Source of the DNA: Thermoanaerobaculia bacterium
GTDB lineage: Bacteria; Acidobacteriota; Thermoanaerobaculia; Multivoradales; JAHZIX01
Length of the DNA stretch: 64,000 nucleotides
NCBI GenBank assembly: GCA_027069135.1
Contig: JALXFE010000626.1
Location: 1-64,000, forward strand
Direction: 5' to 3'
Each line of letters begins with the position of its first letter. Positions within the stretch are counted from its first letter, which is position 1. The notes beneath the pieces were generated by a model, which worked only from the letters and a program-made list of their open reading frames with translations, was not told where the DNA came from and made no database searches. Both the position numbers and the translations under genes were made by a program. Below, one piece after another: positions 16,428 to 51,200 of the stretch.

Positions 16428-19313
16428 TCAGTCTGCCGGAGTAAAGGTTTGTGCCGTTAGTCGGTTGGCCCGCACCGCTTCGGATCTGAGCAGCATCGGA
16501 TGGTAGCTGTTGGTCAACCATAGGTGGAGCTGGTCCGCTTGAAACGGGCTTCCCGGGAAGGCGCTCTGGCCGCCGGGGATCACCTGGAAGGCCTCGGTGG
16601 TGCGATGGTCGATCTGACCGACGAACCGGCGATTGGGGCCGGACCCGAACATGAATCCGTTGACGGTGGAAGCCCGGGTGCTATGGGACGATGCGTCGAC
16701 GACCTGGAATCCGCCGCTGCGAGGAATGCCCGGAAGATCCGGCGACAAGCTCGAGAATCCACCTCCCTCGGGAATGCTAAAGGGGCCGCCCAGAGGGCTG
16801 TCGAAGACGATGCGGTGGAGATACCCCCAGCGGTAGTCGTCCTGATCTGTGGAGCCTCCATAGGCTGGAGCGAAGGTGTCAGAAGCCAGAAGATCGAGGG
16901 TGTCTCGGAGGCTTTGGAGGATGGTGAGATCCCGACCCGCGGCGGGATCTGCGCTATCCGGAGCCAAGGCCAGGAGGCGAGCCCCGGAGGCGCCGACGCC
17001 TTCGTTTTGATCGAAAGCCTGGAGCAGGTGGACAACCGCGGACCAGGACTGGACGCTGCCCGGGGCGAAGTCCCCGAGACCGACCGCTGCGAGAAAGGCG
17101 TCTACCGAGTTGGCGAGCATGCGGCCCCGCCAGGTGCTGTAGATCGTCGCCGCGACGCTCGAGGCGATCTCGGCTGCGTCCGGTTCCAAGAGATTGCTCG
17201 GGTCATCCCCCGGGTCATATCCCTGGGCTAAGCCCGTCGGGGTTGCGTAGTCCCAGCCCCGGAGACGATTCACCGCTTCGGCGATCTCCGGGTCACCGGC
17301 AAAGGCGGACAAGGATCCGGGGGCCCCGGCGGCCGCAGAGTTATCAAAAGCCTGGGTAATGAAGGGGACAACCAACTCGGCGTCCAGCAGCTGGTTATTG
17401 CCCTGGAACCGCTTCATATCGTCCATAGAGATCTTCCCGCCGTCCGTCAACGCGTCTTCGATGAGGCGACGGATGCGGCCGGCTCGGAGGCTGGAGTATC
17501 CGGGACTCAGGTAATAAAGACCTCCTCCGGGCCGAAGTTGATTTAAGGGGTTGTTGTCCAGAGTCGTCCCCACGGGATCGTTGTTGGCGTTGAGGATGTA
17601 GCCGGATTCCGGGTTGACGGATTGAGGCATTTCCGAGAACGGCAGGATCTCGAAATCGAGCGCTTGATGGGGCTGTGGTTGGCTCACCGGCAGCCATTCG
17701 TTGGCGAAGGTCCCGGAGCCGTCTCGAATCAGATAGGGGGGAGTGCCGTCGGGCTGATTGAGATTCTGGAGGTCTTCTCGGATCGGCATTTCGGCGCTGG
17801 TGAAGTAGGCGATATTGCCCGCCACGTCCGCAACGCCCCAATTCTGGGAACCGACATCGAAGTCCTGCAGGGCTTCGGCGAACTCCCGGATATTGGTGGC
17901 CCGCCACCAGCGGCGGAAGCATTCCAATTCACGGGTGCTGCGCCAACCGGTGTATTGGACGGAAAGGGCCGTGACCGTGGGGGCGGCACTGGCATCGATG
18001 GCGACGATGGGGCCGTTGTTGCGCCGGGGCACCACGAAGGTGAGTCCGCCGTCCGCCGGGCCGATATTCGCCGTCGCCAGATTGTCCGCAACGCCATCAC
18101 CGACCTGATTGGTGCGGTATACCTGGGGGATGACGACCAGGGGCTCCGCCTCACCTTTATAGATCGTGTGGGTCGGCAGGCCGGTCGTCGGGTCGACGAC
18201 GAGAATTTCCTGGTAGACGTCGGTGACGTCCATGGGATTGACTGTAGAACCCCAGCAGATCGAGGAGTTGCAGCCCTGGGCCAGGGCCGGAGCTCCGGGA
18301 AAACTGACACCGTTGGCGTTGAGAACCCGATGGCGATCCGGATCGAAGACCAGGATATGCACCTCATAGAAGGTGGATGGGCTATCCAAGGCCAGATGAG
18401 GGTCGTTGGCCAGCATCGGCAGACCGGAGGCTGAGTTGTCACCCCCTACCAACCACCAATTGCTCCCGCGATCGACGTCGCTGGAGTTCAAGGTCCAGGC
18501 GAGACTGGGGATCTGGGCGATGCGATCCCGGTAGCTGCGGGCGAGCTCCAGGGCCTCCGGGCGGATGACCTTCTGTACGCGGCGAGCCGTGGCCAAGAGG
18601 GAGCTCGCAGCCTCGATAGCCTGGGGATCGCCGCCACCGGGCGTTGTGGGAATGGAGACGGTGGGGTCCATGGGCGCAGACCGGAAGAGATCCTCGAAGA
18701 AAAGTGCGGTGCCGTCGAACCCGGCGGCGCCGCCAGCGGTCTGGTAAGCGACCAGAGCGATGGTGCGCTCGATATCGTCTAAATCGAAGGAGAGACCGAA
18801 GGCGAGCCCTTTGCCAGCGACGAGACTGTCCACCGGAGTCCACTTCGGAATCGAGGAGCGGGTCAGCTCGAGGGCGCCATATTGGGGGGGCAGAGGTCGG
18901 GTTTCGAGGTAGGCGTTGACGCCGTCGGCGTAGGCTTGCAGCCAGACGGCGGTCTGTCGCGAAGACGTCGCCCAGGTTTCTTCCGCCGCTCGGCGCAGGC
19001 CGAGGGTCCGCAATTGCACGTCCGTGGGTAGCGCCCCGGGACCGAGGAGCTCCGCGAGCTGACCGCTGAAGAGGCGGCGCAGGCTGTCCATCTGGAAGAG
19101 ACGATCCTGGGCGTGGACGTACCCGATCATGAAGCTGGCGTCGAGATCGTTGCGGGCGTAGATGTGGGGTATTCCTTGGAAATCCCTAACAACCCGGGTC
19201 TCTTCCCGCAGCCCCGCCAAGGAAGCAGCTTCTACGCAGAAGAATGAAGGCTGAGCTGAAGCGACCGCGAAGATGGCGGCGATGATCACAAAGCTACGGC
19301 AGTGCCGGAACAT
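16428..19313 (-). CDS. Penicillin acylase family (Ntn hydrolase) protein, exported
   Basis: A 961-aa member of the S45 penicillin/acyl-homoserine-lactone acylase family, which hydrolyses amides after self-cleavage into two chains. The start at 19313 is preferred because AAGGAGGG precedes it, and the protein then begins with a signal peptide (MFRHCRSFVIIAAIFAVA). The propeptide has TRVVRDFQGIPHIYARN and YVHAQDRLFQMD, both typical of the family. The cleavage site is RG|SNWW, making Ser284 the new N-terminal nucleophile. The beta chain has the expected NDPHL and WGSTVNPMDVTDVY. Substrates may be beta-lactams, acyl-homoserine lactones or other amides; the sequence does not say which. It is transcribed away from the lasso locus. 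Confidence 0.93.
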   Translation of the reverse strand: MFRHCRSFVIIAAIFAVASAQPSFFCVEAASLAGLREETRVVRDFQGIPHIYARNDLDASFMIGYVHAQDRLFQMDSLRRLFSGQLAELLGPGALPTDVQLRTLGLRRAAEETWATSSRQTAVWLQAYADGVNAYLETRPLPPQYGALELTRSSIPKWTPVDSLVAGKGLAFGLSFDLDDIERTIALVAYQTAGGAAGFDGTALFFEDLFRSAPMDPTVSIPTTPGGGDPQAIEAASSLLATARRVQKVIRPEALELARSYRDRIAQIPSLAWTLNSSDVDRGSNWWLVGGDNSASGLPMLANDPHLALDSPSTFYEVHILVFDPDRHRVLNANGVSFPGAPALAQGCNSSICWGSTVNPMDVTDVYQEILVVDPTTGLPTHTIYKGEAEPLVVIPQVYRTNQVGDGVADNLATANIGPADGGLTFVVPRRNNGPIVAIDASAAPTVTALSVQYTGWRSTRELECFRRWWRATNIREFAEALQDFDVGSQNWGVADVAGNIAYFTSAEMPIREDLQNLNQPDGTPPYLIRDGSGTFANEWLPVSQPQPHQALDFEILPFSEMPQSVNPESGYILNANNDPVGTTLDNNPLNQLRPGGGLYYLSPGYSSLRAGRIRRLIEDALTDGGKISMDDMKRFQGNNQLLDAELVVPFITQAFDNSAAAGAPGSLSAFAGDPEIAEAVNRLRGWDYATPTGLAQGYDPGDDPSNLLEPDAAEIASSVAATIYSTWRGRMLANSVDAFLAAVGLGDFAPGSVQSWSAVVHLLQAFDQNEGVGASGARLLALAPDSADPAAGRDLTILQSLRDTLDLLASDTFAPAYGGSTDQDDYRWGYLHRIVFDSPLGGPFSIPEGGGFSSLSPDLPGIPRSGGFQVVDASSHSTRASTVNGFMFGSGPNRRFVGQIDHRTTEAFQVIPGGQSAFPGSPFQADQLHLWLTNSYHPMLLRSEAVRANRLTAQTFTPAD

Positions 19314-19609
19314 CCTGGAACCCTCCTTGTGAAAGCTTGCCGGGTTCACGTTCCCGGCCAGCAATTGAAGATCGATGTCTGTCTAGTGTACATCTTTAGT
19401 TGAAGTACTGAGGGTCCGGCCAGTCTGAGTAGGGGATTCTGTAGGGAGAATCCTGATAAGGATTCAGGCCGGAGACCTACACGAAGCTGAGCTTAAGTCC
19501 GGTTTGAGGTGCCGGTTGGAGCTGTTTATAGTGTCGCCAAGGAGAATTGGAGTTTGGCGAAGGAAGGTCCTCTGCGCGGACATGACGTGAACCGGCCCGG
19601 AGCCTCGCC
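19314..19609. other. Divergent promoter region between acylase and lasso cyclase
   Basis: A 296-base gap between two divergent genes, presumably holding both promoters. I see no convincing -35/-10 pair, operator palindrome or small gene. A missing lasso-pathway gene (RRE or protease) is not hidden here: no frame of suitable length exists. Confidence 0.45.
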
Positions 19610-21514
19610 GTGAGCGGGCTGTGCGCGATCTTGCGCTTGGACGGGGGGAGGGTCGGGGTGACGGACCTCGAGCCCCTGTTGGCTGCTTTGGACCATCGAG
19701 GACCGGATGGGAGCCGCGGGAGGGTCTCCGGGCCCTGCGCGATCGGGCACCTTCACTTCCGAACCACGCCGGAAGAGGCCTCGGAGAATCAGCCCCTGGC
19801 TACCGTAGGAGGGCGCGTGATCCTGGCCTTCGACGGTCGACTCGACAACCGAGGAGACGTCTGGCGAGCTCTACCGCGTTCCCCGGGGCCCCTGGACAGC
19901 CTTTCAGACGCTCGATTGGTTCTCGAAGCCTTTCGGTTTTGGGGCACCGGAGCCTTCTCTCGCCTCCTCGGTCCGTTCGCTGTCGTCCTGTGGGACGAAC
20001 GGGGAGAGACCGGCGAGTTGGTCCTGGCCCGTGACGGTCTCGGGAGTCGGCCCCTCAAGGTCTTTCGAAATCGAAACCTGGTCGTCGCGGCCTCCGAGGA
20101 GGCGGGGATTTTGGCCCACCACCAGGTCACCGCCGAGCTCTGCGAAGAGCGGGTCGCCACCTTCTTCTCTCTCGGGCCGTTGGTGGACGGCAAGACTTTC
20201 TTTGAAGGGATCGAAGACCTCCTTCCGGGCCGTGGCCTCAAGATCAGCCGGGAGGGAAGCCATGAGTTCCGCTGTTGGACCCCGAATCTGAGGAGCAGAA
20301 TTCGGGGCCGCCGGGACGAGGATCTGGCGGATGAGTTCCGAGCTCTCCTGACAGCGAGCGTGCTCCGACGGATGCGGGCCCCGGAACAACCCGCCGTCAT
20401 GATGAGTGGAGGTCTGGACTCGACGCCGGTGGCAGCCTTGGCCTGCCGCCAGGTGAGAGCGGAGGCTCCGCTGCGGACCTTTACCTGGGTCTTTGACGAG
20501 CACCCGGAATGTGACGAGCGTTTCTACGTCGAGGCCTTGAGCCGCCGGCTGCCCTTGGAGGCATGCTATCTCCCCTGTGATGACGCATGGCCCCTGGCCG
20601 GGGGCGAGGCCTGGCCGGTGCATCCTGCGACGCCGGAACAAAATCCTTACCGTCTCTTCCATGAGCGTACCTATCGATCGGCGGCTCAGTCCGGGCATCG
20701 GGTGCTCCTTTCCGGGATGACCGGGGACCAGCTCTACGGCGGCACCGATGGCTGGGCCTACGACTTGCTGGCCGAGGGCAGGTGGCGCGACCTGGGGCAG
20801 GAGATCGCCCACCACAGGCGGGCAGCCTCCTTCGGCTCCTTGGTTCGCGGATTCCTACCCGCGTGGATTCACCGCCAATCTCCCCGAGCTCCGTGGTTGA
20901 AGCCGAGCGCCGCCGCGCATCTGGCCGGTCGCCGGTACGGGCTGCCGGAGGCCCGCCACGCTCGGAGACCTCACCAGGCCCGAAGCCTTCTCGATCCGAT
21001 GAATGGTCACGGCCTCGCCGTCGAGGCCTACTATGCCGGCCGCTGCGGCGTTGAGCTGCGATACCCGCTCAGAGACCGGCACCTTGTAGAATTCATGTTG
21101 GGAATTCCAACCGAAGAGCTGTACCGGCAAGGAACTCGGCGACCGATTCTTCGCCGGGCGCTGGCCGAAGAGCTCCCCGGGGTCATCCTGGAGCGCCAGG
21201 AGAAAACTTCCTTCGCACCGGTGTTTTTCAAGGGGCTGATGCAGAAGGAATCCGGATGGGTACATGAGCTGCTGAATGAGTCCACCGGGGTCTGGACGCA
21301 GTATGTCCGCCCGGATTGGGTACGAAGCGTCAGGAAAGTCGCTTCGATACCTGAAGTCGCATGGGTTGTACTGTGGTTTTGCTTGAGCTTTGAGATATGG
21401 CATCGGTCTTGCAAGGGTGATAGTCTCAGCGGATGTCTTGGAAAAGGAATGGCCCGCCGGATCCGATCCGGGGGAATCTTGGAAGACTCGATGAGGGAAT
21501 CCGTAGGGACATGA
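19610..21514 (+). CDS. Lasso-peptide cyclase (asparagine-synthetase-like, C protein)
   Basis: A 634-aa asparagine-synthetase-like enzyme. The N-terminal part is a class II glutamine amidotransferase fold (HRGPDG at about 29-34), but it starts MSGLCAI instead of MCGI, so the catalytic Cys2 is replaced by Ser. Loss of that Cys is usual in lasso macrolactam synthetases, which need no ammonia. The ATP-pyrophosphatase loop SGGLDS lies at 266-271, and the C-terminal part ends with VVLWFCLSFEIWHR as in lasso cyclases. It should adenylate an acidic side chain of the core peptide and close the ring. Start is GTG with GGAG upstream. Its stop overlaps the precursor start (ATGA), which makes the pairing firm. 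Plain asparagine synthetase is the less likely alternative. Confidence 0.85.
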   Translation: MSGLCAILRLDGGRVGVTDLEPLLAALDHRGPDGSRGRVSGPCAIGHLHFRTTPEEASENQPLATVGGRVILAFDGRLDNRGDVWRALPRSPGPLDSLSDARLVLEAFRFWGTGAFSRLLGPFAVVLWDERGETGELVLARDGLGSRPLKVFRNRNLVVAASEEAGILAHHQVTAELCEERVATFFSLGPLVDGKTFFEGIEDLLPGRGLKISREGSHEFRCWTPNLRSRIRGRRDEDLADEFRALLTASVLRRMRAPEQPAVMMSGGLDSTPVAALACRQVRAEAPLRTFTWVFDEHPECDERFYVEALSRRLPLEACYLPCDDAWPLAGGEAWPVHPATPEQNPYRLFHERTYRSAAQSGHRVLLSGMTGDQLYGGTDGWAYDLLAEGRWRDLGQEIAHHRRAASFGSLVRGFLPAWIHRQSPRAPWLKPSAAAHLAGRRYGLPEARHARRPHQARSLLDPMNGHGLAVEAYYAGRCGVELRYPLRDRHLVEFMLGIPTEELYRQGTRRPILRRALAEELPGVILERQEKTSFAPVFFKGLMQKESGWVHELLNESTGVWTQYVRPDWVRSVRKVASIPEVAWVVLWFCLSFEIWHRSCKGDSLSGCLGKGMARRIRSGGILEDSMRESVGT

Positions 21515-21690
21515 AGACCCAAGGACAGCTACCCGCGCCGGAGAATGCGAGCGCGCCGGAAGAGCCTACCTCCCGGCGCCGAGACTACGCACCACCGGTT
21601 CTTCGGGAGTACGGCGACCTCCGGACCTTGACCCTGGGCCCGTCTCCCGGCCTGGGCGAGAGTGGGAATCCCGCAGTGTTCCGGGCTTAA
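21511..21690 (+). CDS. Lasso peptide precursor (A protein)
   Basis: A 59-aa peptide whose ATG overlaps the cyclase stop. The leader has the lasso consensus Y..P.L...G.....T: YAPPVLREYGDLRTLTL at residues 26-42, with Thr41 at the penultimate leader position. Cleavage after Leu42 would release a 17-residue core, GPSPGLGESGNPAVFRA (bases 21637-21687). Gly1 supplies the amine and Glu8 the side-chain acid, giving an eight-residue ring and a nine-residue tail. A longer in-frame start at 21433 lies inside the cyclase gene and is less likely. The order cyclase then precursor is the reverse of the common A-B-C arrangement. Confidence 0.85.
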   Translation: MKTQGQLPAPENASAPEEPTSRRRDYAPPVLREYGDLRTLTLGPSPGLGESGNPAVFRA

Positions 21691-33074: not shown

Positions 33075-33289
33075 GCCGAAGCCTTCTTCTGCGAGGTAGT
33101 TCCCCGATTTGAGCTCTCGGCAGTATCGATGCCGCCCGCTCAGACTCCAATAAGAGCTGTTTTTCAAGGGTCAAGACAAGTCTTCGAGGTCCGCTGTGTC
33201 GTTGGCAGCCGTGGCGCAGGTGGATCTCTGCGGGCCGGCGGCGGAGTGCCGGCGGAGGAAGATATGCCTATGGAAAGGTGGTTCCTGCT
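33075..33289. other. Gap before the giant gene
   Basis: A 215-base spacer with no visible terminator or gene. AAAGGTGG at 33274-33281 is the likely ribosome site for the GTG at 33290. Confidence 0.4.
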
Positions 33290-36200
33290 GTGAAACCGAC
33301 GTTCAAGATCGCGAGCGCACGCAAAGCCGAGACCCTCAAGAGGAGGCTTGCGAAAGGTCTCACAGCAGCGATGCTTCCGTGGGTCTTCGCCCTGCCCATG
33401 GTGGGTAGCGCAGGATCGCCTCCGTCTTTAGACGAGCTGCGCCTCGGCAATTTCATCTACCAGCCGCTGACGGTTTCCGGAAATTTTCAGGCCCGATTCT
33501 TAGAGGACCGGAATCACGTCACGGTCATCGAGCTCGCCGGTGGCAGCTACGACCGGGATGCGACGGATGGCAGCTTCAACGCAGAGCCAAGAGCGGTCGT
33601 CGCCCAGGAGTTCTACCTGGACCATCCGGACGAGTACGACTTCCTCATGGTCTTTACGACCTTCGAATTCGACACCGGGGATGCCGTAGCCTTCCACGTC
33701 GGCGCCCAGAATCCGGTGCAAGGGATCGGGCAGCCGGTCTTCGACAACACGGCGTTTTTCGGCAGCGAAGGCAAGCTCCAAGGCTATATCGATATGGCGG
33801 CTCTGACCCGCTATTCGACGGACCCGCTGGATCCGGAGTTCGACTTCGCCCTCGGGGTCATGGCCCACGAGATTCTCCACCAATGGTGCTGCTATGTGGG
33901 CTTCGACGACGCCGGCGCGAGCAGTCAGGCGCTCTTGGGCAAAGATGACGCCCATTGGAGCTTCCTCTTAGATAGTGATGCGTCGGTGATGTACGGCAGC
34001 GATTGGCGGGACAACGCCGACGGCACCTTCACCGCCGCCAACACCCGAACGTTCTACTCGCCTCTGGATCTCTATCTGGCGGGCCTCTTCGGTCCCGAGC
34101 AGGTGCCTCCCTTCGAGTTGATCGAGAATCCTGCCGTCGACAAGACACAGCTCCCGCAACGGGGGGCCACCATCTCCGGCACTTCGCGGCTGGTGAGTGT
34201 CGACGACGTCATCGCCATCGAGGGGCCCCGAATACCGGCAGCGGCTCAGGCCCAAAAAGAGTTCCGTGCGGCCTTCATTCTGCTGACCCGGCCGGGTATC
34301 GAGGTCGAGGCTGCTCAGATTGCCGCTCTCAACAACTTCCGGGAGGGGCTCTTGGCCCGGTTCTCGGCCCTGACCGGTGGCCAGGCATTGATGCAGGTCT
34401 TTCCGGAGGCTCGCTTGGACATCGGCACCGGGACTCCGGATCCGGTCGACGGCGGCGGCATCCGGCCCACCAGCGCCAACCTCGACGAAGCCCTCGCCTG
34501 GCTACGGGGAGAGCAGGTCGTGGACGGTTTTTGGGAAGACACAGCGGCGACCCGACTGCGGGATACGGCCGTGGCCTTGGCGACCCTTTCGGCCCTCGAT
34601 CCCTTGTTCAGCGGCGGCTCGGCGGCTCTCGGCTGGCTCGGCGGGCAGCAGGAGGCCAGCGCCGACTACCGGGCCCGCACGGCGGATGTTTTCGAAGCGG
34701 TCGGGCAGGGTGCGGCGGCCCTCCGCGCCGAGCTGATCGCCTCCCAGAATTCCGACGGTGGCTGGGGCCTGGGCGATCGCTACGACAGCGTGCCTCTCGA
34801 TACGGCTCTGGCGGTCCAAGCTCTGGCGGGGCATCCCGAGGTGCCGGCGGCGGATCTCGCCGCTGCGGTGGGCTATTTGGTGGCCGTCCAGGGCACCGAC
34901 GGCGGCTGGAGTAACACTCCGGTGGGACCGAGTCGTACCGGCGTTACCGCGGAGGTCTTGAAGGCTCTCAAGAGGACCGACGAATCGACTCCGGTGGCCG
35001 CGGCCCTGGCTTTTCTGGCGAGCCGGCAGAATGCCGACGGCGGCTTCGGCGACAGTCCGAGCACGGCTCACGACTCCGCCCGAGCTTTGGAAGCCCTGAT
35101 GAGCTTCGATGCATTGGGCCAGATCGATGCCGGCGGCGCCGCAACCTATCTTTCGAGTCGGCAGACCGTCGTCGGCAGCTGGGAAGGGAGCGTCTATACG
35201 ACCGCCTTGGTGGTCACCGCCCTACGCCGTTTCGCTTTCCCGAATTGGAGCTTCACGTCGGGCCTGATCCCCGATCCGGCCCTGCCCCGAGACGGTGAGC
35301 GGGTCGCCCTGACCGTGGAGGTCACCAATACCGGCAACGCCACGGCGCCGGCTGGGATCGTTCGCTTCTTCGATGGCGATCCCGGATCCGGCGGTGTTCC
35401 CATCGGTGCAGATATCGTGGTCCCCACCTTGGCGGCCCAGCAGTCGGCGACGCTGACGGCGCTGTGGGATACCTTCGATGGAGCGGGGGGGCACACCCTG
35501 GTCGCGGTGGTCGATCCGGACGGAACTCTCGCCGAGCTTTCGGAAGTGGACAACCGAGCAGAGCTTTTGATCGAGGTGGTGCCGGCACCGGTCGAAGCGG
35601 ATCTCGAAGTCCGGGAAGCGGACATCCTCGTCACCCCGTCTCAGCCCAACGAGTTGCCGACGGCTCTGGGCGTTGTCGTGACCTTGCGCAATCTTGGCCT
35701 CACGGACGCCCTCGACGTGCGGGTGGTGCTTACGGTCGGAGAGGGAGCGGACGCCGTCATCGTGGACGAAGTGACCCTGACCGCTCCCCAACGATCCTCG
35801 ACCCCGGTGAACCTCTCCTATCTCCTGGAGACTCCGGGGCTCACCGTTTTGACCGTGGAAGTCGATCCCGACGGCCTGATCCCGGAGGCGGATGAGACCA
35901 ACAACACCGCGGCCCGGTCAGTGTCGACGATCGCCTCCGTGGACCTCGAAGCTCTCGATGCGGGCATCGTGCTCGCCGGTGGAGCCTTCCTGGGCAACGA
36001 TGCAACCTTCGGCGTGACCCTGCGCAACCGGGGAACCGTCGATTCGCCGACCACCCAGGTGCGCTACCGGGTGAGCGACGGCACGACGGTCCGCGAGCTG
36101 GGGATCAACACCATCCAACCCACCGCCGGGGAGACCCTCGAGCAGAGCATCGTCTGGCGAGTAGACCTGTTGGGGGATCTCACCTTCACGGCGGAGCTCG

Positions 36201-39200
36201 ATCCGGATGACCTGGTTCCGGAGACCGACGAGACGAATAACACCGGCACCCGGGCCTTTACCGCCACCGCTGTCACCAACCCGAATCTGACGGTGGATTT
36301 TCAAGACCTGGGCTTCGATCCCAACCCGGGCCTCGAAGGCTCGCCGCTGATTCTTTCGGTGCTGGTCCGTAACGCCGGCGGCACGGCGGCGACGAATGTC
36401 GAGGTCGCCTTCTACGACGGGGATCCGGCCCAGGGGGGCACCCTCTTCGGTGACCTGGTGGTGATTCCCAATCTCGATGCCGGCGCATCTCTCCTCGCCT
36501 CGACGACGGTGGTGGAAGTGCCCGACGCCGCCGATCGGCTGATCTTCGCCGTGGTCGATCCCTCGGATCAGATCGCCGAGTTCGATGAGACCGACAACGA
36601 CGCCTTCAATACCCTCGAAATCCTCAGCCTGCCGGATCTGGCTCTGTCGGTGGCGTCGCTGGATCTCAGTCCTCGCTTCCCACGCCCGGGGGATCCGGTG
36701 ACCCTCACGGTCACGGTGACCAATCTCGGGGAACAGGCGGCCACGGATGTGTTGGTCCGTACTTTCGATGGCGAGCCGGCCATCGACGGGGTGCCGGTCG
36801 GTGGAGATCAGCTGATCCCGACGATTCCAGGGCAGGGAAGCGGCTCGGCAGTCTTCAGCTGGACCTTCGACGGTACCGGCGACTTGCGCCCCATCGTGGT
36901 CTTTGCGGACCCGGACGACACCGTCCGGGAGCAGAGTGAGAGCAACAACCGGGCGGACCTTGACGTCGCCGTCCAAGATGGCAATTTCTTCCTCAGTCGG
37001 CGGTATTTCTCACCGGATGGGGATGGCGTCAAGGACGGGACCTCATTCTTCTTCTTCCTGGGCGCCCCGACCACGGTCCAGGTAGAGGTGGTGGACCGCC
37101 GGGATCAGGTGGTCCGTCACAGCCAGCCCTTCGTCAACGTCAGCGACGGTCAATTCGATTGGGACGGTCTCGATGATCGGGGGCCCGTGGTTCGGGATGG
37201 CGACTACGTCCTGCGGGTCGTCGATACCGCCGGAGTGTCCTTGGGGGAGGCGACGGTCACGGTGGATACCAATCGCTCGTCGCTCATCGAGGCGGTGGGG
37301 ACTCCGTTCGAGCTCTTTACCAATCTGACCTGCGAGCTGCCCTCGGTTTCCCGGCTGACCCTGACCGGCGACGAAGACACCTTCTTCTTCGACATCACCT
37401 CCAACTCCGATCCTCTCTTCGGGCGGGGCATCTACAAGATGGCCAGTAATGGCGGCGATGTCCGCCAGATCGTCCCGGCATTCTGGAGCACTCAGGCCTC
37501 CCTGCGGGAGATGCAGGTGGCCTCGGATGGGAGCCGGGTGGTCTTCTCCCTCCGGGGCCGCATCCTCGCCGGGGGATCCTTCGAGTCCCGTCAATATGTG
37601 GTCAACGGGGATGGGACGGGTCTCCAGCAGCTCGATCCGGCGCCGGGGCTGGGCAGTGGCACCGGGGTCTTCGGCTTCACCGAGGACGGAAATACGGTGC
37701 TCGTGAACCAGAGCGCCAGCTTGGTGGCCATCGACCTGACGGGCTTCGCCCCGCCCTTGGTGATCTTCTCCATCGATACTAGCTTCGGTAGTTTCTCGGC
37801 TGAGCGCTCGCCGGACGAGAAACGGATGGTGATTCCCGTCAGCGGGGATTTCGGGCGGCAGTTGGCGTTGGTGAATCTGGAGACCTTGACCTCGACCTTC
37901 CTGCCGAGCGTGCCCTTCAGCTTCGATAATTATGAGTTCTCCTTCTCACCGGATAGCAGCCGCTTGGCGGTGGCTCGAAGGCAGAGCGGGGACCTGCGCA
38001 TCTTCGACCGCAGCGGCAACCTCCTTCAGGAGAGCCCGCTGCCGGTGGAGCTGCCGCCCTATCCCATCGAAGACGGTGGCGGCGGCGGCGAATTTCTCAC
38101 CAGTGGTGGTCAAGGCCTGACGGTCGGCGGCGATGCCCCTGCCGTCGGTGAAGCCGTAGGCCTCCCGGGTGGGCCCTCGTTGTTCCTGACGAAGGTTGGA
38201 GTTCCCCAGTGGGGACCGTCTTCGACGGAGCTAGCGATATTGGTGACCCAGACTACGGGGTTCAGCGCCGAGTGGCGGCAATTGTTGCGCTACGACCTCC
38301 TGACCGAGCTCTTCGAGAATGTCGCCTGGACTTTGCCGTCTTTCTTCGGCTTGCCGTCGTCGTACCACGTCTCGACTTGGGACGGCTCCACCTGGGTGGA
38401 GCGGGCGGTGCTGCATCACGGCATCTACCTCGAAGAGCAGAAGGTAGATCTCAGCGACTTCCTGCCGGATCCGGACGGTGAGCTCAAGGTACGTATCCGC
38501 CAGGCCGGCCTGGAGGCGGCCCACGTCGAGCACGTTTCGCTCCTGAGCAGCGGTGAGCGTCTGCTGCCGACTTCCGCCGTGCGTCTCGACACCGGTCAGG
38601 AGGCTCTGCTGGAAGTGCGCCATCAGGACAACGTGCTCTTCGATCTGCACGAGGCGGAGATGGAAGTCGGCTGGCCAGCTTGGGAGCCCGGTGGTCCCTT
38701 CGTCCTCGCCCTCGGGGCCCGGGAGGAAGTGCTGTCCACCCGTCGGGTCGTGCCTTTCACCTACCCCCGAACCGGTGCCTACCGGTACACGGTCGGCGAG
38801 GAAGGTCCGATGGTCGTGGATGGCCTCCAGACCTCCGCGGACGATCTGGGCTCGGCCCTCTTCGGCGTCCAGACCCGGCCGGTGACCGGCCACCCGTCGG
38901 CCAAGGTTTTCGGTTGGGTCAAGAGCGACGGCATCGATCTCTACGGTGCCCTCGACTTCACCGTCGACAATACCTTGGACGGCGACCGGGATTGGGCATC
39001 GTTGGAAGTCGAGACGGCTTCCGGATGGCAGGAGATGCGGGTCACCGCGGTCGATCAGACCTATGGGATCGCCGGCTTCACTCGTACCGCCCCGGTACAC
39101 CATGCCCACAAATACTACGAGTTTCGAATTCCTCTGGCTGAGGTAGGCGCTTCGGTGGGGGAGACCCTCTCCCTGCGTTTCCGCGCCTACGGAACCGCCG

Positions 39201-42200
39201 CCGGTTGTGAGATCCCCGGTCGCTGCGATCCGGAGGTCTTCGATGGCTTGAATCTGCTTCCCTTCAGCGGCTACGACCTGTGGGTGCCGAATGAGCGGAC
39301 TCTCTACTACGCCAATTTCACCAGTGGCCGACCGGCGACGGCCATCCTGTTGGACGACGATAACGAGTTTCGTGACCTCTTCGAGGAATGGTTCAACTTC
39401 AGAAACGAGAAGTTTTCACCCTCCGGCCGCCGACTGCTCTATCAGTCCAGCGATCACCGCAACGATCCGGCCAGCGCCTGTTATCAGCGGGGCTTCACGG
39501 ACGACTTTTCCTTCCAGTCGTTGATGAACCTCACGGTCGATCTGCGGCCGCGGCGCTCCTCCGCCAGTGGCGGGATTCTGCTCGAAGGAACCGCCGCGGA
39601 TCTCAATTTCAAGAGTTACCGCCTCGATTACTCGCCGGCTTCGTCGCCGGGCGAGTTCAACCCCATCGTGCCACCGGCGGGGCAGCAGGTCATCGACGAC
39701 CGTTTCACGACCTGGGTACCGCCGGGGCCGGGAACCTATTTCGTGCGCCTGCAGGTGGAGGATCTGGCCGGCAACGTCAAGGAGGCCATCAAGCGGGTTT
39801 CGTCCTCGGATACCCCGAGCATCACGGACATCTACCGGGAACCGGCGGATATCTCTCCCAACGGCGACGGGGTTCAGGACGAGACGCTGATCCATTACCG
39901 GGTCTTGGCGCCGGTCCACCTGGAATTCCAATTCTTTAACGAGATCGGCGACCGGGTCCGCACCATCGAGCGGGATCATTCCACCATCGGGCTGACCTTC
40001 GACCTACCCTGGGACGGGCGGGACGATAGCGGGTTGCCGGTACCGGACGGTATCTATCGCATGTTGGTGCAGAATTTCGAGTTCTTCGTCAACGTCGACT
40101 CGACGCCACCGGAAGTGATGATCAGCCTGAGTGACGCGTTGCAGGCGAGGACTATCGAGGGGCTCTCCTCGCCGGTGGTGGTGGCAGCGCCGGAGCTGCG
40201 ATATTCGGTGCGAGAGGCGAATTTCGCCACCAGCCTCGGTGAGTCCGGCTTTGGGGAAACACCCTTCGAGTGGTTGGAGTTTCCCACCTCGTTGCGCAGG
40301 AGCCGGACCGATCCGGATCTGCTCCTAGGCGGTCGCCCCTTAGATCTCGATCAATTCACCCACCACCGCTTCCGGTTCGAGGCGCAGGATCGGGCCGGTA
40401 ACCGCAGTCTGGTGACCACACCGTTAGGGGCCGAAGAGCTCATCGTTTCGCAGTTCGGCGTCCACGCCGTCACCGACTTCGGTACCTTCGCAGACCTCGA
40501 GCTGGTGCCCTTCCTGGGCCGCCCGAGAATTCGCTTGGCGAACGGCGATGTACGTTTCAAGGTCGCGGAGACGATCGCCGAAGAAATCTTCCAGCTTTCC
40601 GTGCAATTTCGTCCGGAAGGCCAGACGAATTGGAGCGAGACCGTCCTCGATCGGTTCCTGCCTCCCGGGGGCGTCAGCTTCGTCTCTGAGATTCCTCAAC
40701 CGGAGCTCGGGGCGGTGTGGGATATGGTCGGCGTACCCATCGGTATCGAAACTGAGATCCGCCTGCGGGCAGTCGACGTTCTGGCGCAAGAGCACGTGTC
40801 CAATTCTTTCTTCGTGCTCACCGACGGCATCATTTTCGGCGGTCCCCTCGCCCAACCGGATCTGACGACCGGGCCCTACGCGGACCTCCTGAGTTCGCTC
40901 TACGAGACCGCTTTGAACGCGGGCCTGCTCTCGCCGGAGGATGTGATTCTGTGGGGAGTGGAGTTCGTCGGCGCACAGCTGGATGAAGTGATTCTCCAGA
41001 TCAGCAGCTCCGAGGATCCCCGCTACGCGGTTCCGGTACCGCTCGAACCGCTGATCAGCGTCGAAGGTGGGTTCCTCTTTGCGCTCGATCCGGCGACCGC
41101 CTGCCTGTCCTACGAAGGCTTCATCTTGGCCACGACGGCGCCGGAGCCGACCATCCGGACCATCACATCCAACGGCGGCGGCTTTACGCTGCGTTGCCTC
41201 GAGATTGAGACGGAGTTACAACCACCGACCTACGGTGGCTGCGACGAGGCGCCGAGCTCGTCGATGCGGACCATCGATGCCACGCCGGTCAGTCTCAACG
41301 GCGCAGCCCTCGTCCTACTCACCCTGGAACGCACCCTGCCGGATGGCACTCCGGATATTCTGGCCAATATCAACGATCCGGTCAGCCGGCGGAAATACTC
41401 TTTCGATTTTGATACCTCGGGTCTTCCGGAGGGTCTCGAAACCCTGACCGCTCGGCTGTCCAACGGTGAAGGGGAGAGCTTTACCACCAGCATCCGAGTG
41501 GCGGTGGACCGGACCCCGCCCGTACCGGCGATCAACGTTCCCCTCGAAGGGCAGCGCCTGTGCGGTATCCAGCGGTTGGTCGAGGGCGAGATTCGCAACG
41601 TCTTCGATGTCGAGGGGCTGGTCAGCGACAACATCGGTTTCTCCTACCGGATGGAAGTCGAAGTGCCGGGCTCCCCGCCGGTCTTCCACGCTCTCCGGGA
41701 TGACCGTGAAGCCTGCTACGGACCGCCGAACGAAGTGCTCTTCAGCTCCCCATATCCGGCCGATCAATGCGGGTCGGTCCAGGGCCCCTTGGGCACCTGG
41801 GGGGATAGCGACGGCGAAACCGAGTTCAGCGGTGATACCGCGGTCCGGATCCACGCCTTCGACCGGGGTGGCTACCACGTCTGCCAGGAGCGTCAGTTTT
41901 TCTTCGATGGCGAGGTCGAAGGGGCTCAGACGACGATCTCTCCGCGCCTCTTCTCTCCCAATGGGGACGAGAACCTGGATTTGACGGTGCTCAATATCTT
42001 CCTCGAAGAGCCGGCCTCGGTAGATGTCGAGGTCTACGCCGCGGTGGAGACGGATCGAGGCCCGGAGATCAGCGGCGACGTGCTGAGGTTCCTGGAAACG
42101 GGCCTTCAGGTCCTGGATTCGGCTCTGGTGAACTGGGACGGCCAAGACGGCAGCGGCTCGGTTCTGCCGGACGGCGTCTATGGCCTGGTGACCCGTTTCC

Positions 42201-45200
42201 TCGATAGTTGCGGCAACCTGGCGAGCCGTACGGTCTTCGTCGAGCTCGACAATACGCCACCGACGGCGCCGATCCTCTTTCCCGGCCCCAGCGATCCCTT
42301 GCCCATGGTGATCGAGATCCTCGGCACGGTGCAGGATCGCAACATCCAGGCCTGGACCGTCGATTTCGGAGTCGGCCTCGATCCGGATACCTGGTCGCGG
42401 ATCAACCTCGGGGCCGGCGAGATGGACGCGGAAGTCCTGGCGGTGTGGAATACCAACGGTCTGTTCGGCGATTTCACCCTGCGCTTGGTGGCTTTGGACG
42501 AGGCGGGGAATCGCACCGAGACCCTGGTCAGCGTTCTGCTGGGCAACCCGACGTATCTGCTGACCTATTTCGAGATCCTGCCGCGCTTCTTCTCCCCTAA
42601 CGGTGACGGTCGGCGGGAGACCGCCAGTATGCGCTTCGGGTTGGATTTCCCCAGCTTCGTGACCCTCACTGTGGAGACTGATACGGGGACCGTTCTGCGC
42701 ACCCTCCTCGACGGAGTGGCTCTAGGCTCCGGGGCCGTGGTCCGGCCCTGGGATGGTCGCAGTGATGGCGGAACCTTGCTCCCCGACGATGTCTATACGG
42801 TGGTCGTCCGAGCGGTCTTGGCGGCCAATCCCGGGGTCACCCAGGAAGAGACCCTGACGGTGGTCCTCGACAAGACCCCGCCGACCATCGATATCACCAG
42901 CCCGTCCACGGGTTTCATTACCGGCAGCAGCGCCGTCGTCGGCTCCATCGAAGACCTGCATCTGACGGAATACATCGTCGAGCTCACCGACACGCCATCG
43001 GCCCCGGTGTGGAATGAGCTGGCCAGCGGCACCACCAGCCGGGTGAGCACCACCTTCGCCATCCTCGACGATTTGGCGGAGGCGGACTACGCCCTGCGAA
43101 TCCGGGCAGAGGACGAAGGGGAGATCCGCGTCGAGCAGATCCTTCCCTTCACGGTGGACAACACACCGCCAGTGGTGACCTTTACCGAGCCCTTGGCCGG
43201 CAGCATCGTGGGCGCGGTCGGGGGTCCGGTGGACCTCCTGGGCACTGTCGAAGAGGAGCATCTGGAGACCTACCGGGTGGAATTCGGTGCCGGTCCGGCG
43301 CCGGATACATGGACCACCATCGTCCTGGGGACTTCGATCCCGACGACGGATCGGCTGGGGGTCTGGGACGTTTCCGCGGTCGCCGACGGCCTCTACATCC
43401 TGCGCCTGACGGCCCAAGACTTAGCGGGCTTGTCCGCCGAGGTCCGCACCTCCGTGACGGTGGACAACACACCACCGACGGCCATCATCGACGATCCTGC
43501 GGACGGCAGTTTCGTCACCGCCCCGCAGCCGATTCTCGGCACTGCCGACGATGCCAACCTTGCGGAATACGTGCTGGAGGTGGCTCCCGCCGGCAGCCAG
43601 CAATTCCAGGAATTGGTCAAGGGCACCCTGCCGGTGATCGGCGGCAGCCTCTTCTCCTGGGCCGGGCTGCCCCCGGACGGTCAGTACACCCTTCGCCTGT
43701 CCGTGGTCGACGGCGCCGGCAATCAGGCGGTGGTGGCGGCGGGTATCACGGTCGATCTGACCCCACCGGCGGCACCTATCAACCTCGTCGCCACGGTGGT
43801 CAACGATCAGGATGCCCAACTGGATTGGACCGCCAGCCCGGAGCCGGACCTGGCGGGCTATCGGGTCTACCGCGACGGGGTGCAGATCACCCCGAGCCTG
43901 GTGGTCCCGAACACGTACCTCGATCCGGCGCTGCAGGAAGGGCCCCACACCTACACCGTCACCGCCCTCGACCTGGCGGGCAACGAGAGCGATCCCTCGA
44001 ACCCAGCGGACGTCACCGTCGATACCACCCCGCCCACGGTTCGGATCTCGGTTCCCTCCGACGGCGATACGGTGAGCGGTCTGGTGGATGTCACGGGCAC
44101 CGCCTACAGCGCTGACGATTTCCGCGAGTACCGCCTCTACGCCACCGCCACCGCGACCGGAGCTCGGCAGTTGCTGCGGCAATCGCCGGTACCGGTGCAG
44201 GCGGACGTGTTGGGGCAGTGGAATACCTTGGTCCTGCCGGAGGCGGCGGAGTTCGTCCTCCGCCTCGAGGGTGAGGATCTGACCGGCAACATCGGTTTCC
44301 ACGAGGTCACGGTGACCATCGACAATCTGCCTCCGGGCGCCCCCACGGGCTTGACGGCGACGCCCAACGGCTCGGATGTCGACGTGGCATGGAATGCCAA
44401 TACGGAGCCGGATCTGGCCGGTTATATCCTCTTCCGGGATGGTCGCATCGCCAACTCCAGCGGAGTGGTGGTGGGGGATTTGACGCCCTTCATCCTTCGG
44501 ACCACGACCTTCTTGGACTTGGGCTTACCGGACGGTACCTTCACCTACGAGGTCCACGCCATCGACACGGCCGGGAATTTGAGTGACGCCTCCCAGCCGG
44601 CGGATGCCACCATCGACACCCGGGCTCCCCACGCGGTGATCGACCCGCCGGTGGACGGCACCGAATTCGAGAACAACCTCTTCGTTCTCGCCACCACGGT
44701 GGACGAGGATGTGGCCCAGGTACTCTTCCAATTCCGCGCTGCCGGGGATCCCACCTGGATCGACCTGGGCATCGACACGGAGCTTCCCTGGGAAGTGGAT
44801 TTCGACCCGATAGCCTTGACCTTCGGCGACTACCAACTGCAGGCCGTCGCCACCGATCTGGGAGGGAGGACGGATCCGGCGCCGACGCCGGTGACGGTGA
44901 CCTTCACGGACCTGACCCGCCCGCAGCCGGTGGTGGATTTAGCAGCCCGGGTCGTCGGCGGCGAGGTGACCCTGACCTGGACGGCCAATACGGATACCGA
45001 CCTGGCGGGGTACCACGTGGAGCGGACGGATTCTGTCGGTAGCCTCAGCCGCTTGACGGCCAGCCCGATTCCGGAGACGACCTATCTGGATGTGGGTCTT
45101 CCGGACGACACCTACACCTACCAGGTGATCTCCGTCGATCTGGTCGACAACGAGGGGGATCCTTCGGCCCCGGCGGAAGCCCTGGTCTACACCCCGGTAT

Positions 45201-48200
45201 TGGAGCAGCCGCTGACTCCGATCCAGGCCTTGACGATGGAGCTGAGCGGCAGCGGCGGCGCCGATTCGGCGGTCGGCGGGGAGGTTACGAGGCCCTCCGG
45301 GACCGTGGCCCTACCGGCGGCGACCTCCGACGCTGAAGGTCTCTTCTCCTTGATCGGCCTGCCCCTGGAGCGGGGGCTCAACACCCTCGCCGTCCGTCTG
45401 ACGGATGCCGCTGGCAACGTGAGTAAAGACGCTTCCGTGTCGGTGATTTCCGGGTCGGCGCCGTCACCGCCCACGGGTCTTGTGGCGGTGGCTCCGACCT
45501 CCACCCAGGTGGAACTGAGCTGGAACGCCAACCCGGAACCGAATATCGCCGGCTACCGGCCCTTTAGGGACGGCGAGGCCGTGCTCCCGGATTCGACCAT
45601 CACCGGTGTGTCGGCCACGGCTTCGAGCCAGACCCACTCCGGAGTGGCTCCGTCCCGGGCGGTCGACGGCAACGTCGGCACCTATTGGGCCCCGCGGGTC
45701 ATCGCAGGTTTTCAACCCCTGGCCGGCCAGTGGCTTGAGCTCTCCTGGGCCAGCCCGCTGATCGTCAGCCAGGTGAATATCACCTGGTTCTCCTTCGAGA
45801 GTGGCGGCTCCCTGACCAACTATGGAGCCCTGGACTACGACATCGAAGCTTGGGACGGGAGCGCCTGGATTCCCCTGGTCCGGATCCGAGGCAACGATCA
45901 GGTCGTCAACCAGATCGATCTGCCCCAGCCCTATCGTACGGATCGGTTGCGGGTCGTGCTCTTGGCGGGCCTCGTGGCGGAGAATTTCTCCCAGTCCTTG
46001 CGCGTCGCAGAGATCTCCCTGGCGCAGCAGGTTCTGGTCACTGGAACGTCCTATACGGATCCGGTCGGGGATGGTGACTACGTCTACACGGTGACCGCCG
46101 TCAACGACCTGGCTTTCGAGAGCGGCCCGTCGAATCCGGCGTCGGTTGCCGTCGGCGATGTCGATCCGCCAGCACCGGTGGTGCTCACCGCGGTCGCCGC
46201 CGGCTCCGATGTCACCCTCACCTGGACCGCTAGCAGCTCTCCGGACGTGACGTCCTACGAGATCTTCCGGGACGGTGAGCCCATCGCCCTCCACACCGAT
46301 CTGTTGGCTTTGACCCATGTGGATCTCAACTTGCTCAACGGCGATTACGCCTACACCGTGACGGCGATAGACGCCGTGGGCAACTCCAGCGTGCCCTCCA
46401 ACCAGGAGGTGGTGACGGTCTTCGTGGCGCCGCCGCCGACCCCGGTCAATCTGACGGTGACGGCGGTGCCCGGGGGGGGCGCTTTGGATCTCGCCTGGGC
46501 GCCTCAAACCGGATCTACGCCCCTCGGCTATCGGATCTACCGCAGCCTGGTGACCGGCGGTCCCTACGAGGAGATCGCGGTGACGGCGGACACCTTCCTG
46601 CGCGACGAGGGGTTGGTCAACGGGGTGACCTACTTCTACGTGGTGGGCGCCTTGGACGCCCTCGGCAACGAGAGTGCTTTCTCCAACGAGGACAGCGGAA
46701 CACCGGTCGACGAACAGGCGCCCCAGCCGCCGGTGCTGCACTTCCCGGGCTTCCCCGGGGTGCTCTTCGTGACCGCTACGGAACCCGTGGACCTGGCCGG
46801 TACGTCGGAGGCCTCAGCGATCGTGAGCCTGTCGCGGGACGGTGTGCCGATCGGGCAGACCACCGCCACGGCGGATCTCGAAGTCGTGGCCACGAGCTTC
46901 TTCGAGGACGTCGTCGTTTCTCCCGACGGTCGCTACCTATGGGTCAGTGATTTCTTCGGCCCGATCCTTCATGACTACCGCACGAGCTCGGACACCTTCG
47001 TGACCGGTGCCCGGGGCCAGGCCCGATGGTTCGCCGACGGGAGTGCGGTGGCCTTGGCGGATGGTGGACAGATCACCCGGTACCAGGTCTCGGACGGGAC
47101 CTTGGACATCCTGGCGACCCTGGGCTTCGCCCAAATGGCGGTGCCGTCTCCGGATGGCACGCGTCTGGCGGTTCTCGGTGAGCAGTTCTTCGATCCCGGT
47201 TTGTGGATCTACGACATACCTACAGCGACCTGGACGCAGCTGCTGGACGATCCCTATTGGTGGTTCGACGAACAGACTCTGAACTGGTCCCCGGACGGCA
47301 GCCAGCTGGCCTACCGGCGGGGCACTCCGGTGAGTGCTTTTGAATTTGTCGACGTCGCTTCGGGGAGCATCACCGTCGTCAACTCCTTACCTGGAGTCGG
47401 TGGACCGAGCTGGTCCCCGGACGGCGGGTCGCTGGTGTATTCGGCAACCCATCCGACCCTGGGCGGCGACCGAATCCGGAGCTATTCCTTGGCGGATGGC
47501 ACGGAGACCGAGCTCACCTCCGGCGCCGACGATTTCTTCCCGCAGCTCTCGCCGGACGGCCGCCAGCTGGTCTGGATCAACGATTTCAGCGAGGCCAAAC
47601 TGCTGGATCTCGCCAGCGGGCAGATCACCTCGCTCGAACCGGTGGCGGGGTTGGGATCCTATGAGCAGCCCCAATGGTCCAAGAGCGGCCGTCTCCTGTT
47701 GTGGAATTTCGACGATGAGGTCCGCCTGACCTTCCCGGGCCACTTCGAGCTCAGCAATGTTTCTCTCCAGGGTGGAGACAACGCCTTTACCGCCATCGCG
47801 GAAGATCCGGCTGGAAATGTCGGCGCCCGGAGTCTACCCATGGTGGTGACGCTGGCCACCGCCGACCGGCCGGATCTGGTCTTGACGGCGTCGGACGTCG
47901 TGATCTCTCCGCCGGTCGGTCTGATCGGCCAGACCGTTCGGGTCACGGTCACGGTGCGCAACGAATCCGAGAACGCCGCCCCGCCCGCGGATCTCAGCGT
48001 CGTGGTCCTGGGGCCCGGCGGTTTCAATAGGACTCTGGTGAGTGGGGAAGTCCTAGGGGCGATCCCGGCGGGGGGCTCCCAGAGCGTCACGCGGGATCTG
48101 GTGTTGGGTAGTGAGACCGGGATTTACTCCATCACGGCGGCGGTAGATCCCTTCGATCGCCTGGCGGAAATTAGCGAAGACAATAATCTGGCTCAGACCG

Positions 48201-51200
48201 ATCTGCCGGTGGCCGCCGACGGAGCACCGCTGCTCAGCGTGACCACGGATCGAGCCGTCTACTTCGGCGATGACGACGTGTTGGCGAGCCTCGAGGTGAT
48301 CAACGCCGGCACCGCCTTCGACGGCCGGTTGGAAGTGCGTATCGAAGATGCCGCCGGCTTCTTGGTGGAGGAGTTAGCGGCCACGGATATCGTGGACCTA
48401 GGGTTCGGCGCCACCCTGGCCGAGACCCGGACCTGGAATACCGGCACCATCTTCGCCGGGGATTACCGGGTGACGGCCCAGGTGAAGGACTCCGCGGGCA
48501 CGGTAGTGGCCGAGGCCCTGGCGCCTTTCATCATCGGTAGCGCCATCGGCCTTGACAGCCAGGTGACGACGGATCGGGGCACCTATGCGGTGGGTTCCTC
48601 CGTCGGCATCGCCGGCACCATCGACTACGTCAGCGGCAACGACACCTTGAGCGGCGCCATGGCGACCCTCCAAGTGTTGGACGGGGCGGACACCGTCCTG
48701 GCGCAATTCAACCGTCCCCTAGGGGACTTGCTGCCGGGGGATTCGGTCACGGTGAGCGCCGACTGGCCCAGCGCCGGCAACCCACCCGGGACCTATCGGG
48801 TGCAGCTCTTGGTCGAGGCCGGTGGCGCCGTCCAATCGACATCGGAGGCCTTCTTCGACCTGCAGGTGGGGGCCGTGCAACTGGCCGGTGATCTGGTGCT
48901 CTCGGATCGCAACCCGGGCATCGGCGAGGTTCTCTCCGCCGCCTTCACGGTGGACAACCTGGGGGGGACCGGTCTCACCCAGGTGCCGCTCCTGATCCAC
49001 CTGGAAGATCCCGTCCAGGGCGTGATTCTCAGCACTCAATCGGTGCTGGTGGATTTGCCCGCCGGCGGCCAGGTCACCGGAGTGGTGAGCTTCGGCACCA
49101 CCGGTCTGCGCCTCCAGAGCTACCTCATCACCTTGCAGGCGGAGATCCCGGCGGCCGGCGGCGGCACCCAGATCGTGTCCCTGCGGACGACCAGCTTCAC
49201 CACCGCCGACCAGGGGCCGCCGCAGGTGACCATCGTCCGGCCCGTGGAGGGCGGTCTCCTGGGGCAAGACCAGATCGCCCAGGTAGTGGCTTTCGATGAT
49301 CTGACGCTGATCCGCATCGTGGAGGTCCAGGCGGACGGCGGAGCCTGGCAGCAGATCCAGTTGGCGGATGCCGCCGGCAATCGCTACGACGGTCAGCTGG
49401 CCCTGGCGGAAGGGGTCCACACCCTGGTGGCGCGGGCGACGGACAGTAGCGGCAATACGGCCCGCTCCGTGCCGGTGACTTTCACCGTCGACCTGACGGC
49501 GCCGGTGGTGACCATCACCGGGGTGACGGACGGCCAGGACTCCAACGATCCCCTGACACCCGTGATCGAGATCGTCGAAGCGAATCCGGACTTCGAGTCC
49601 ATCACTTTGAACGGCACCCCCTTCGCATCCGGGACGGCGGTGGATGTGGCCGGCGCCTACGTCCTCCAGGTGACGGTGGAAGATGCCGCCGGCAACCGCA
49701 CGGAGGTGACCTTGAGCTTCACCCTGACGGCGGCGCTGGTCATCGGGGACCTCTCCGTCACCGAAGGGGACGCCGCGGCGGTGGATGCGGTCCTACCGTT
49801 GAGCCTCTCCCTGCCGACGGCGGCGGGGGCCTCGGCGACCTTCGCCACGGCGGCGGGTACCGCCACGGCGGACGTCGACTACACCGAGACCACCGGCACC
49901 GTGAGCTTCGCCGCCGGAGAGACGGCCGCGACGCTGGCGGTCCCGGTCTTGGGCGACCTTCTGGACGAGCTGGACGAGACCTTCACCGTCACTCTGGCGG
50001 ATGGGGTGGACCTGGTGCTGGCGGATCCGGAGGCCACGGTCACTATCGTCGACGACGATGCTGTGCCGGATCTCGTCGTCGACGATGTGTCGGTCCTGGA
50101 GACCGACGCGGGCACCGTCGACGCTGTGTTCACAGTGACTCTGTCGGCGGCCAGCGGTCTTGACGTGAGCCTCGATTTCGCCACCTCGGACACGGGGGCG
50201 ACGGCGGGTGCGGATTACACCGCCGCCGCCGGTACCTTGACGATCTCAGCGGGGACAACGACGGCGACGATCTCGGTGGCGATCCTGGACGACGCCCTGG
50301 ACGAGGCGGACGAGACCTTCGCCTTGACTCTCGCCAACGTGGTCAACGCCACGGTGACCGACGGGGAAGGCCAGGGCACGATCCTGGACGACGATCCGGC
50401 ACCGGATCTGTCCATCGGCGATGCCACCGTGACGGAGGGCGACACCGGCACCCTCGATGCCGTCTTCACGGTGACCCTGTCAGCGGCGAGCGGTCTCGAC
50501 GTGAGCTTCGACTACGCGACCGCCGACGGCACGGCGACGGCGGGAGCCGACTACACGGCCTCCTCCGGCACCGTCACCGTCCTCGCCGGGGACACCACCG
50601 CGACGGTCGCCATCGCGGTGCTGGGAGACCTACTGGACGAGGCGGACGAGACTTTCACCTTGACCCTCATCAACGCGGTCAACGGCAACATCGTCGACGG
50701 CGAGGGTCTAGGAACCATCGTCGACAACGACCCGGCGCCGGATCTGGCCATCGGCGACGTCACCGTGACGGAGGGCGACGTGGGCACCGTCAACGCCGAC
50801 TTCCTCGTGACCCTCTCGGCGCCGAGCGGTCAGGACATCACCTTCACGGCCACCACGGTGGACGGTACGGCGACGGCGGGGCTCGATTACACGGCCTCAG
50901 CGGCGCCGGTGACGATGCCCGCGGGAACCACGAGCGCGATCGTGACGGTAGCGGTGTTGGGGGATCTGCAGGACGAGCCCGACGAGACCTTCACGGTCTC
51001 CCTGTCGGCGGTGGTCAATGCGGTGGCCGTGGACGGCGTGGGTCTGGGAACCATCGTCAACGACGACTTCGGCCCCGTCTTCTGTCCTCGAGATCCCGGA
51101 TATTGGAAGCGCCACGTCGAGGATTGGCCGGTGCAGCAGCTCCTTCTCGGCGGCGTGGTCTACGACCAGCCGGGGCTCCTGGCCCTCCTGCGCTCCGGCG

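Follow-up and report, generated by a model that had tools for sequence, protein, structure and literature searches.

A lasso peptide cyclase–precursor pair with leader-processing genes probably encoded at an unlinked site

The cyclase and precursor genes

The window, a stretch of 64,000 nucleotides from the genome of a Thermoanaerobaculia bacterium, contains a cyclase gene (C) and a precursor gene (A), both with intact reading frames (Table 1). In hmmscan searches, C scored 319 bits against the lasso cyclase model NF033535, under its cut-off of 525, and 185 bits against the asparagine synthase model TIGR01536; the Pfam families GATase and Asn_synthase matched it as well. Since the NF033535 score falls short of the cut-off, the cyclase assignment rests on the tree, the motif and the genomic context. 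Alignment placed a serine at position 2 (VSGL..) and an intact SGGLDS at residue 266, bearing out the initial annotation, which had described an asparagine-synthetase-like protein with Ser in place of the glutaminase Cys2. In the same alignment, every one of the 14 lasso-type rows showed Ser2, and the three asparagine synthetases all showed Cys2.

Table 1. Positions of the genes and sequence features discussed in the text
Feature	Location	Strand	Description
C, lasso macrolactam (isopeptide) cyclase	19610..21514	+	634 aa; GTG start; Ser2 for glutaminase Cys2; SGGLDS PPi-loop motif
A, lasso precursor	21511..21690	+	59 aa; ATGA overlap with C; leader YAPPVLREYGDLRTLT(-2)L(-1); 17-aa core
Leader segment matched by NF033521 lasso-leader model	21586..21642	+	RRE-binding Y-x2-P-x-L through T-2
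Promoter-like match	19504-19532		weak
Penicillin amidase	16428-19364	opposite to C and A	signal-peptide-like N-terminus
Long open frame	33278-53236	+	6652 aa; CARDB, bacterial Ig-like, fibronectin III, F5/8 type C and Calx-beta domains
Second lasso locus, window's genome	G000:C318, L003 2504-6926		cyclase, precursor, PqqD-fusion protein, HprK-like protein
C318-type locus, G001	C29, L073 3857-7385		cyclase, precursor, PqqD-fusion protein
Sigma-54 regulator orthologue, window's genome	C431:151-1644		3′ end ~150 bp from contig end facing the B genes
Dispersed repeat copy, window's genome	C297:1-94 (L165)		eight further genome copies, 91-99% identity
RRE-precursor fusion, G017	L058 14318-14749	-	
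RRE-precursor fusion, G009	L069 14696-15145	-	
Window-type precursor, G111	L063 5119-5310		upstream of C; Val for Thr at leader -2 (VVLGGSPGLGDS)
Tandem precursor-like peptides, G023	C25, L139 6336-6851		two, near-identical (YETPEIVDLGDARELTLGRPNL..CDDACDCTK)

In a maximum-likelihood tree, C fell within a clade of 18 sequences (support 100/99). The asparagine synthetases, represented by E. coli AsnB and the two enzymes of the window's own genome, lay outside it. The initial annotation had held that a place among ordinary asparagine synthetases would speak against a lasso cyclase, and C lies outside them. C is thus an asparagine-synthetase homologue adjoining A that retains the ATP motif and lacks the glutaminase Cys, and it shows neither Cys2 nor the tree placement of an AsnB-type asparagine synthetase. 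By sequence comparison, it groups with the lasso cyclases and not with the asparagine synthetases. Two further cyclase-like matches, on contigs C42 and C134, were rejected as lasso cyclases because both are Cys2 asparagine synthetases by the tree; the C42 match sits amid polysaccharide-type genes.

The ATGA overlap of the cyclase gene with a 59-aa peptide, noted initially, was found at 21511, and the full lasso leader with a G1/E8 core described for this peptide also held up, the leader YAPPVLREYGDLRTLT scoring 24.5 bits on NF033521 against a cut-off of 19. This is the sole match above that cut-off in the entire 7.17-Mb genome. The predicted core is GPSPGLGESGNPAVFRA, of 17 aa, with Gly1 and Glu8 as ring positions (G1-P-S-P-G-L-G-E8-SGNPAVFRA). 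The product would be a threaded lasso, for which, as the core less one water, a monoisotopic [M+H]+ of 1594.80 and an [M+2H]2+ of 797.90 are calculated. A combines a lasso leader (YxxPxL ... T at -2) with a G1/E8 core and is conserved across relatives, and recurrence of the C–A pair and of the core motif in those genomes argues that A is not a chance peptide. It is therefore extremely improbable that C is an ordinary asparagine synthetase, or that the locus is a decayed pathway beside a peptide that happens to resemble a leader: the score of C under the curated NF033535 cut-off would fit such a reading, but the tree, Ser2, the conservation of A in many genomes and the intact frames all stand against it.

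No RNA elements were found near the locus in Rfam, and one weak promoter-like match was recorded. Elsewhere, the window contains a very long open frame encoding the domain families listed in Table 1.

Leader-processing genes in the window's genome and its closest relatives

In lasso biosynthesis, the leader is bound by B1 and handed to B2 (PMC5067487). The genome of the window (G000) is a metagenome assembly of 626 contigs and 7.17 Mb, 97.45% complete. Neither PqqD nor Transglut_core3 matched anywhere on the window's contig, in agreement with the initial statement that no B1 or B2 lies near the locus. The genome-wide profile search for RRE and B2 proteins proposed at that stage returned no lasso B2, and a lineage-specific B2 profile likewise found none in the whole assembly. 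No discrete B1 was detected either, the only PqqD match, and hence the sole RRE, being part of a fusion protein on contig C318. Taken literally, the absence of B1 and B2 thus holds for the assembly.

Two candidates for a substitute protease were considered and set aside. The single match to PF13471 (Transglut_core3) in the genome is a transglutaminase-like protein on contig C617, which was rejected as B2 owing to its length of 511 aa, its hydrophobic N-terminal stretch and the fact that Transglut_core matched it better. The penicillin amidase neighbouring C was rejected as leader protease on account of its N-terminus and strand (Table 1), and none of the relatives read has such a gene next to C.

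Examination of three related genomes, one of the same genus (G001) and two of the same family (G002 and G003), revealed a B1–B2 pair on a contig other than that of C–A, with neither C nor A beside it within the stretch read. The B2 proteins score 90-103 bits on NF033537 (lasso_biosyn_B2; cut-off 33), and the B1 proteins are PqqD. In G001, C–A lies near 132-134 kb on contig C13 (238,628 bases) and B1–B2 near 228 kb on contig C2 (506,317 bases), positions that place the two at least ~330 kb apart, so that the split in this genome is not an assembly effect. G001 possesses two C–A loci and a single detectable lasso B2, which suggests that one B2 is shared by both. The heading under which the locus had first been annotated, naming the absence of leader-processing proteins as a property of the pathway, is consequently unsupported, as relatives encode B1–B2 at a separate site.

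Unlike the flanks of C–A, the B1–B2 site is syntenic. The block in G003 runs sigma-54 regulator, sigma-24 gene, B1, B2, a 309-aa secreted-type protein and FloA, and those of G001 and G002 depart from it only in minor respects (MATE, phosphatase). The sigma-54 orthologue of the window's genome, near the end of contig C431, is 81% identical to that of G001, the next best match reaching 47%. Contig C297 begins with 180 bp followed by the orthologue of the G003 protein adjoining B2, and then by MBL and FloA in order. The first bases of C297 are a copy of a dispersed repeat of ~80-115 bp, and a repeat of this kind is an ordinary cause of broken contigs. The sigma-24, MATE and phosphatase genes of the block likewise have no orthologue in the assembly, and the relatives lead to an expected missing stretch of ~3-6 kb. 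Since both flanks of the syntenic site end at contig ends, B1–B2 most likely lie within an unassembled gap of this size, with C431 and C297 as the candidate pairing. Loss of B1–B2 from this genome is possible, given that G013 and G111 are also without a detectable B2.

These observations bear directly on a minimal pathway, in which B1–B2 would be truly absent, an unrelated host protease would remove the leader and C would then cyclise the freed core. The lack of B2 in a 97%-complete assembly is compatible with such a pathway, as are the two C-bearing genomes G013 and G111 (at least 96% complete), where B2 is likewise undetected; in G111 (96% complete), neither B1 nor B2 is detectable. Pseudomycoidin, moreover, is reported to have been synthesised in vivo without leader or leader peptidase (Zyubko 2019). 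However, the syntenic B1–B2 site coincides with two contig ends, all three same-genus or same-family genomes have B1–B2, and the full RRE-binding leader motif is kept, which would be pointless without B1. A minimal pathway is accordingly unlikely, and it was dropped as the main reading because contig ends bracket the B1–B2 site. Among the three readings initially offered, a B system elsewhere has gained support, while a minimal type has not stood as the main one.

C–A units, a second lasso locus and RRE fusions

The search of related genomes for the same C–A pair, advised in the initial annotation, showed that pair and core motif recur. A cyclase match with E <= 1e-40 is present in 33 of 148 related genomes, the window's own counted, and in many of these a precursor adjoins the cyclase, with related cores such as GPSPGVGESGNPTVFRA, GPSPGVGESGAPSMFKP, GASPGIGESGNPALFRA and GASPGIGDSANPALLRP. 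Pairs with cores of the GxSPGxG(E/D)S type are spread over several families within the order and the class. C, A, B1 and B2 lie side by side in one direction in G144 and G108. In G142, G031 and G026, B1–B2 adjoins C, and that contig also carries the precursor; all five belong to the clade of the window's cyclase. Across the 148 genomes, a B2 was detected in 28 of the 33 with this type of C and in 34 of the 115 without (Fisher p = 1.4e-8, uncorrected for phylogeny). No C–A flanks common to the window and its relatives were found in 18 loci, and the nearest cyclase to C on the tree comes from another family. From these two observations the C–A unit appears to be subject to relocation or transfer.

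The window's genome carries a second lasso locus, on C318, with a counterpart in G001 (Table 1). Its precursor cores are of the GNILNGTQDGFFSG / GTFNGTQDGFLSG type, and the fusion protein on C318 has 402 aa with a C-terminal PqqD domain; the N-terminal part of this ~400-aa protein contains a phosphoribosyltransferase-like motif (VIVDDCLLSGAR). No B2 was seen near the locus in either genome. A complete lasso cluster elsewhere might have explained the window's cyclase away, but C318 carries its own cyclase and precursor and does not do so. That the C318 RRE serves the window's precursor together with some other protease is very unlikely: although its PqqD domain is the sole RRE in the assembly, the locus is also without B2, the domain belongs to a divergent fusion adjoining its own cyclase and precursor, and the same-genus genome has both a C318-type locus and a separate discrete B1–B2.

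A different kind of fusion was observed in G009 and G017, where proteins of 143-149 aa unite an N-terminal PqqD/RRE domain with a C-terminal window-type core (GPSAGVGESGNP; GPSAGVGESGNPLxFRS). The RRE domain aligned to the B1 profile with an hhalign probability of 95.9% (E 5e-9). Pfam PqqD scored 20.8 bits on the G009 fusion, just below the cut-off, and Pfam gave no match on that of G017. The YxxP motif is degenerate in both, and the fusion genes adjoin an HprK-like kinase gene and lie a few kb from the cyclase. No RRE–precursor fusion was found in the literature searched.

Window-type precursors standing alone, the stretch read containing no cyclase, were also recorded in G024, G018, G013 and G040 (L180-L184, L186). 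Two are present in G024, on different contigs, and the contigs concerned in G018 are short.

Proposed pathway and relation to known systems

Taken together, the locus is probably the cyclase–precursor half of a split lasso pathway, whose B1–B2 are encoded elsewhere, act in trans and fall in the assembly gap. The B1–B2 site would lie between the sigma-54 regulator/sigma-24 block and the block of secreted-protein, MBL and FloA-family genes. The RRE protein B1 is predicted to bind the YxxPxL motif of the leader of A and to present it to B2, a transglutaminase-like cysteine protease, which would cleave after T(-2)L(-1) and free the core. C would then adenylate Glu8 and join it to the alpha-amine of Gly1, yielding the threaded 17-residue lasso. 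The retained YxxPxL suggests that the leaders still rely on an RRE, and co-occurrence together with gene architecture in relatives points to processing of the window's precursor by B1–B2 acting in trans.

Several features are shared with class II lasso peptides of the paeninodin and streptomonomicin type, namely the YxxPxL leader with T(-2), the Gly1/Glu8 ring, the asparagine-synthetase-like C and, in the window's relatives, discrete PqqD-type B1 and B2. The order C then A, at first regarded as uncommon, is a weak distinction, as the padeCAB1B2D construct of paeninodin has the same order (padeC-A-B1-B2-D; PMC5067487). In contrast to class II systems, B1–B2 are unlinked to C–A in the window's genus and family, and the core family GxSPGxG(E/D)S is unmatched to any characterised lasso in the sources searched. 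Compared with asparagine synthetase B and beta-lactam synthetase (PDB 1CT9, 1JGT), C has by sequence the same two-domain fold and the ATP-PPi motif, but differs in its Ser for Cys2, its separate clade and its RiPP precursor partner. The locus is best regarded as a new lasso family whose processing genes are unlinked rather than as a minimal pathway. Lasso pathways with discrete B1 and B2 are already well known, and a split operon has been published: the title of the 2026 report on cebulassopins announces a lasso peptide from one. Judged by that title, the likeness consists in genes outside one operon, the natural product being different.

Mining tools that demand adjacent A, B and C genes would overlook or misannotate such loci, above all where a metagenome assembly is fragmented, and the present case illustrates how an assembly effect combined with an unlinked locus can give the appearance of a minimal pathway. 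The GxSPGxG(E/D)S peptides constitute a new core family for expression, and with the two loci apart it can be tested whether a single leader protease serves several lasso cyclases. A broader proposal, which appears about as likely to be right as wrong, is that a resident B1–B2 pair serves several cyclases while C–A cassettes and solitary precursors move, with the RRE–precursor fusions of G009 and G017 providing recognition in cis.

Two variants of precursor organisation were noted besides. The window-type precursor of G111 is encoded upstream of C and departs from the usual leader at position -2, and in G023 the two tandem precursor-like peptides are located beside B1–B2 and another cyclase (Table 1).
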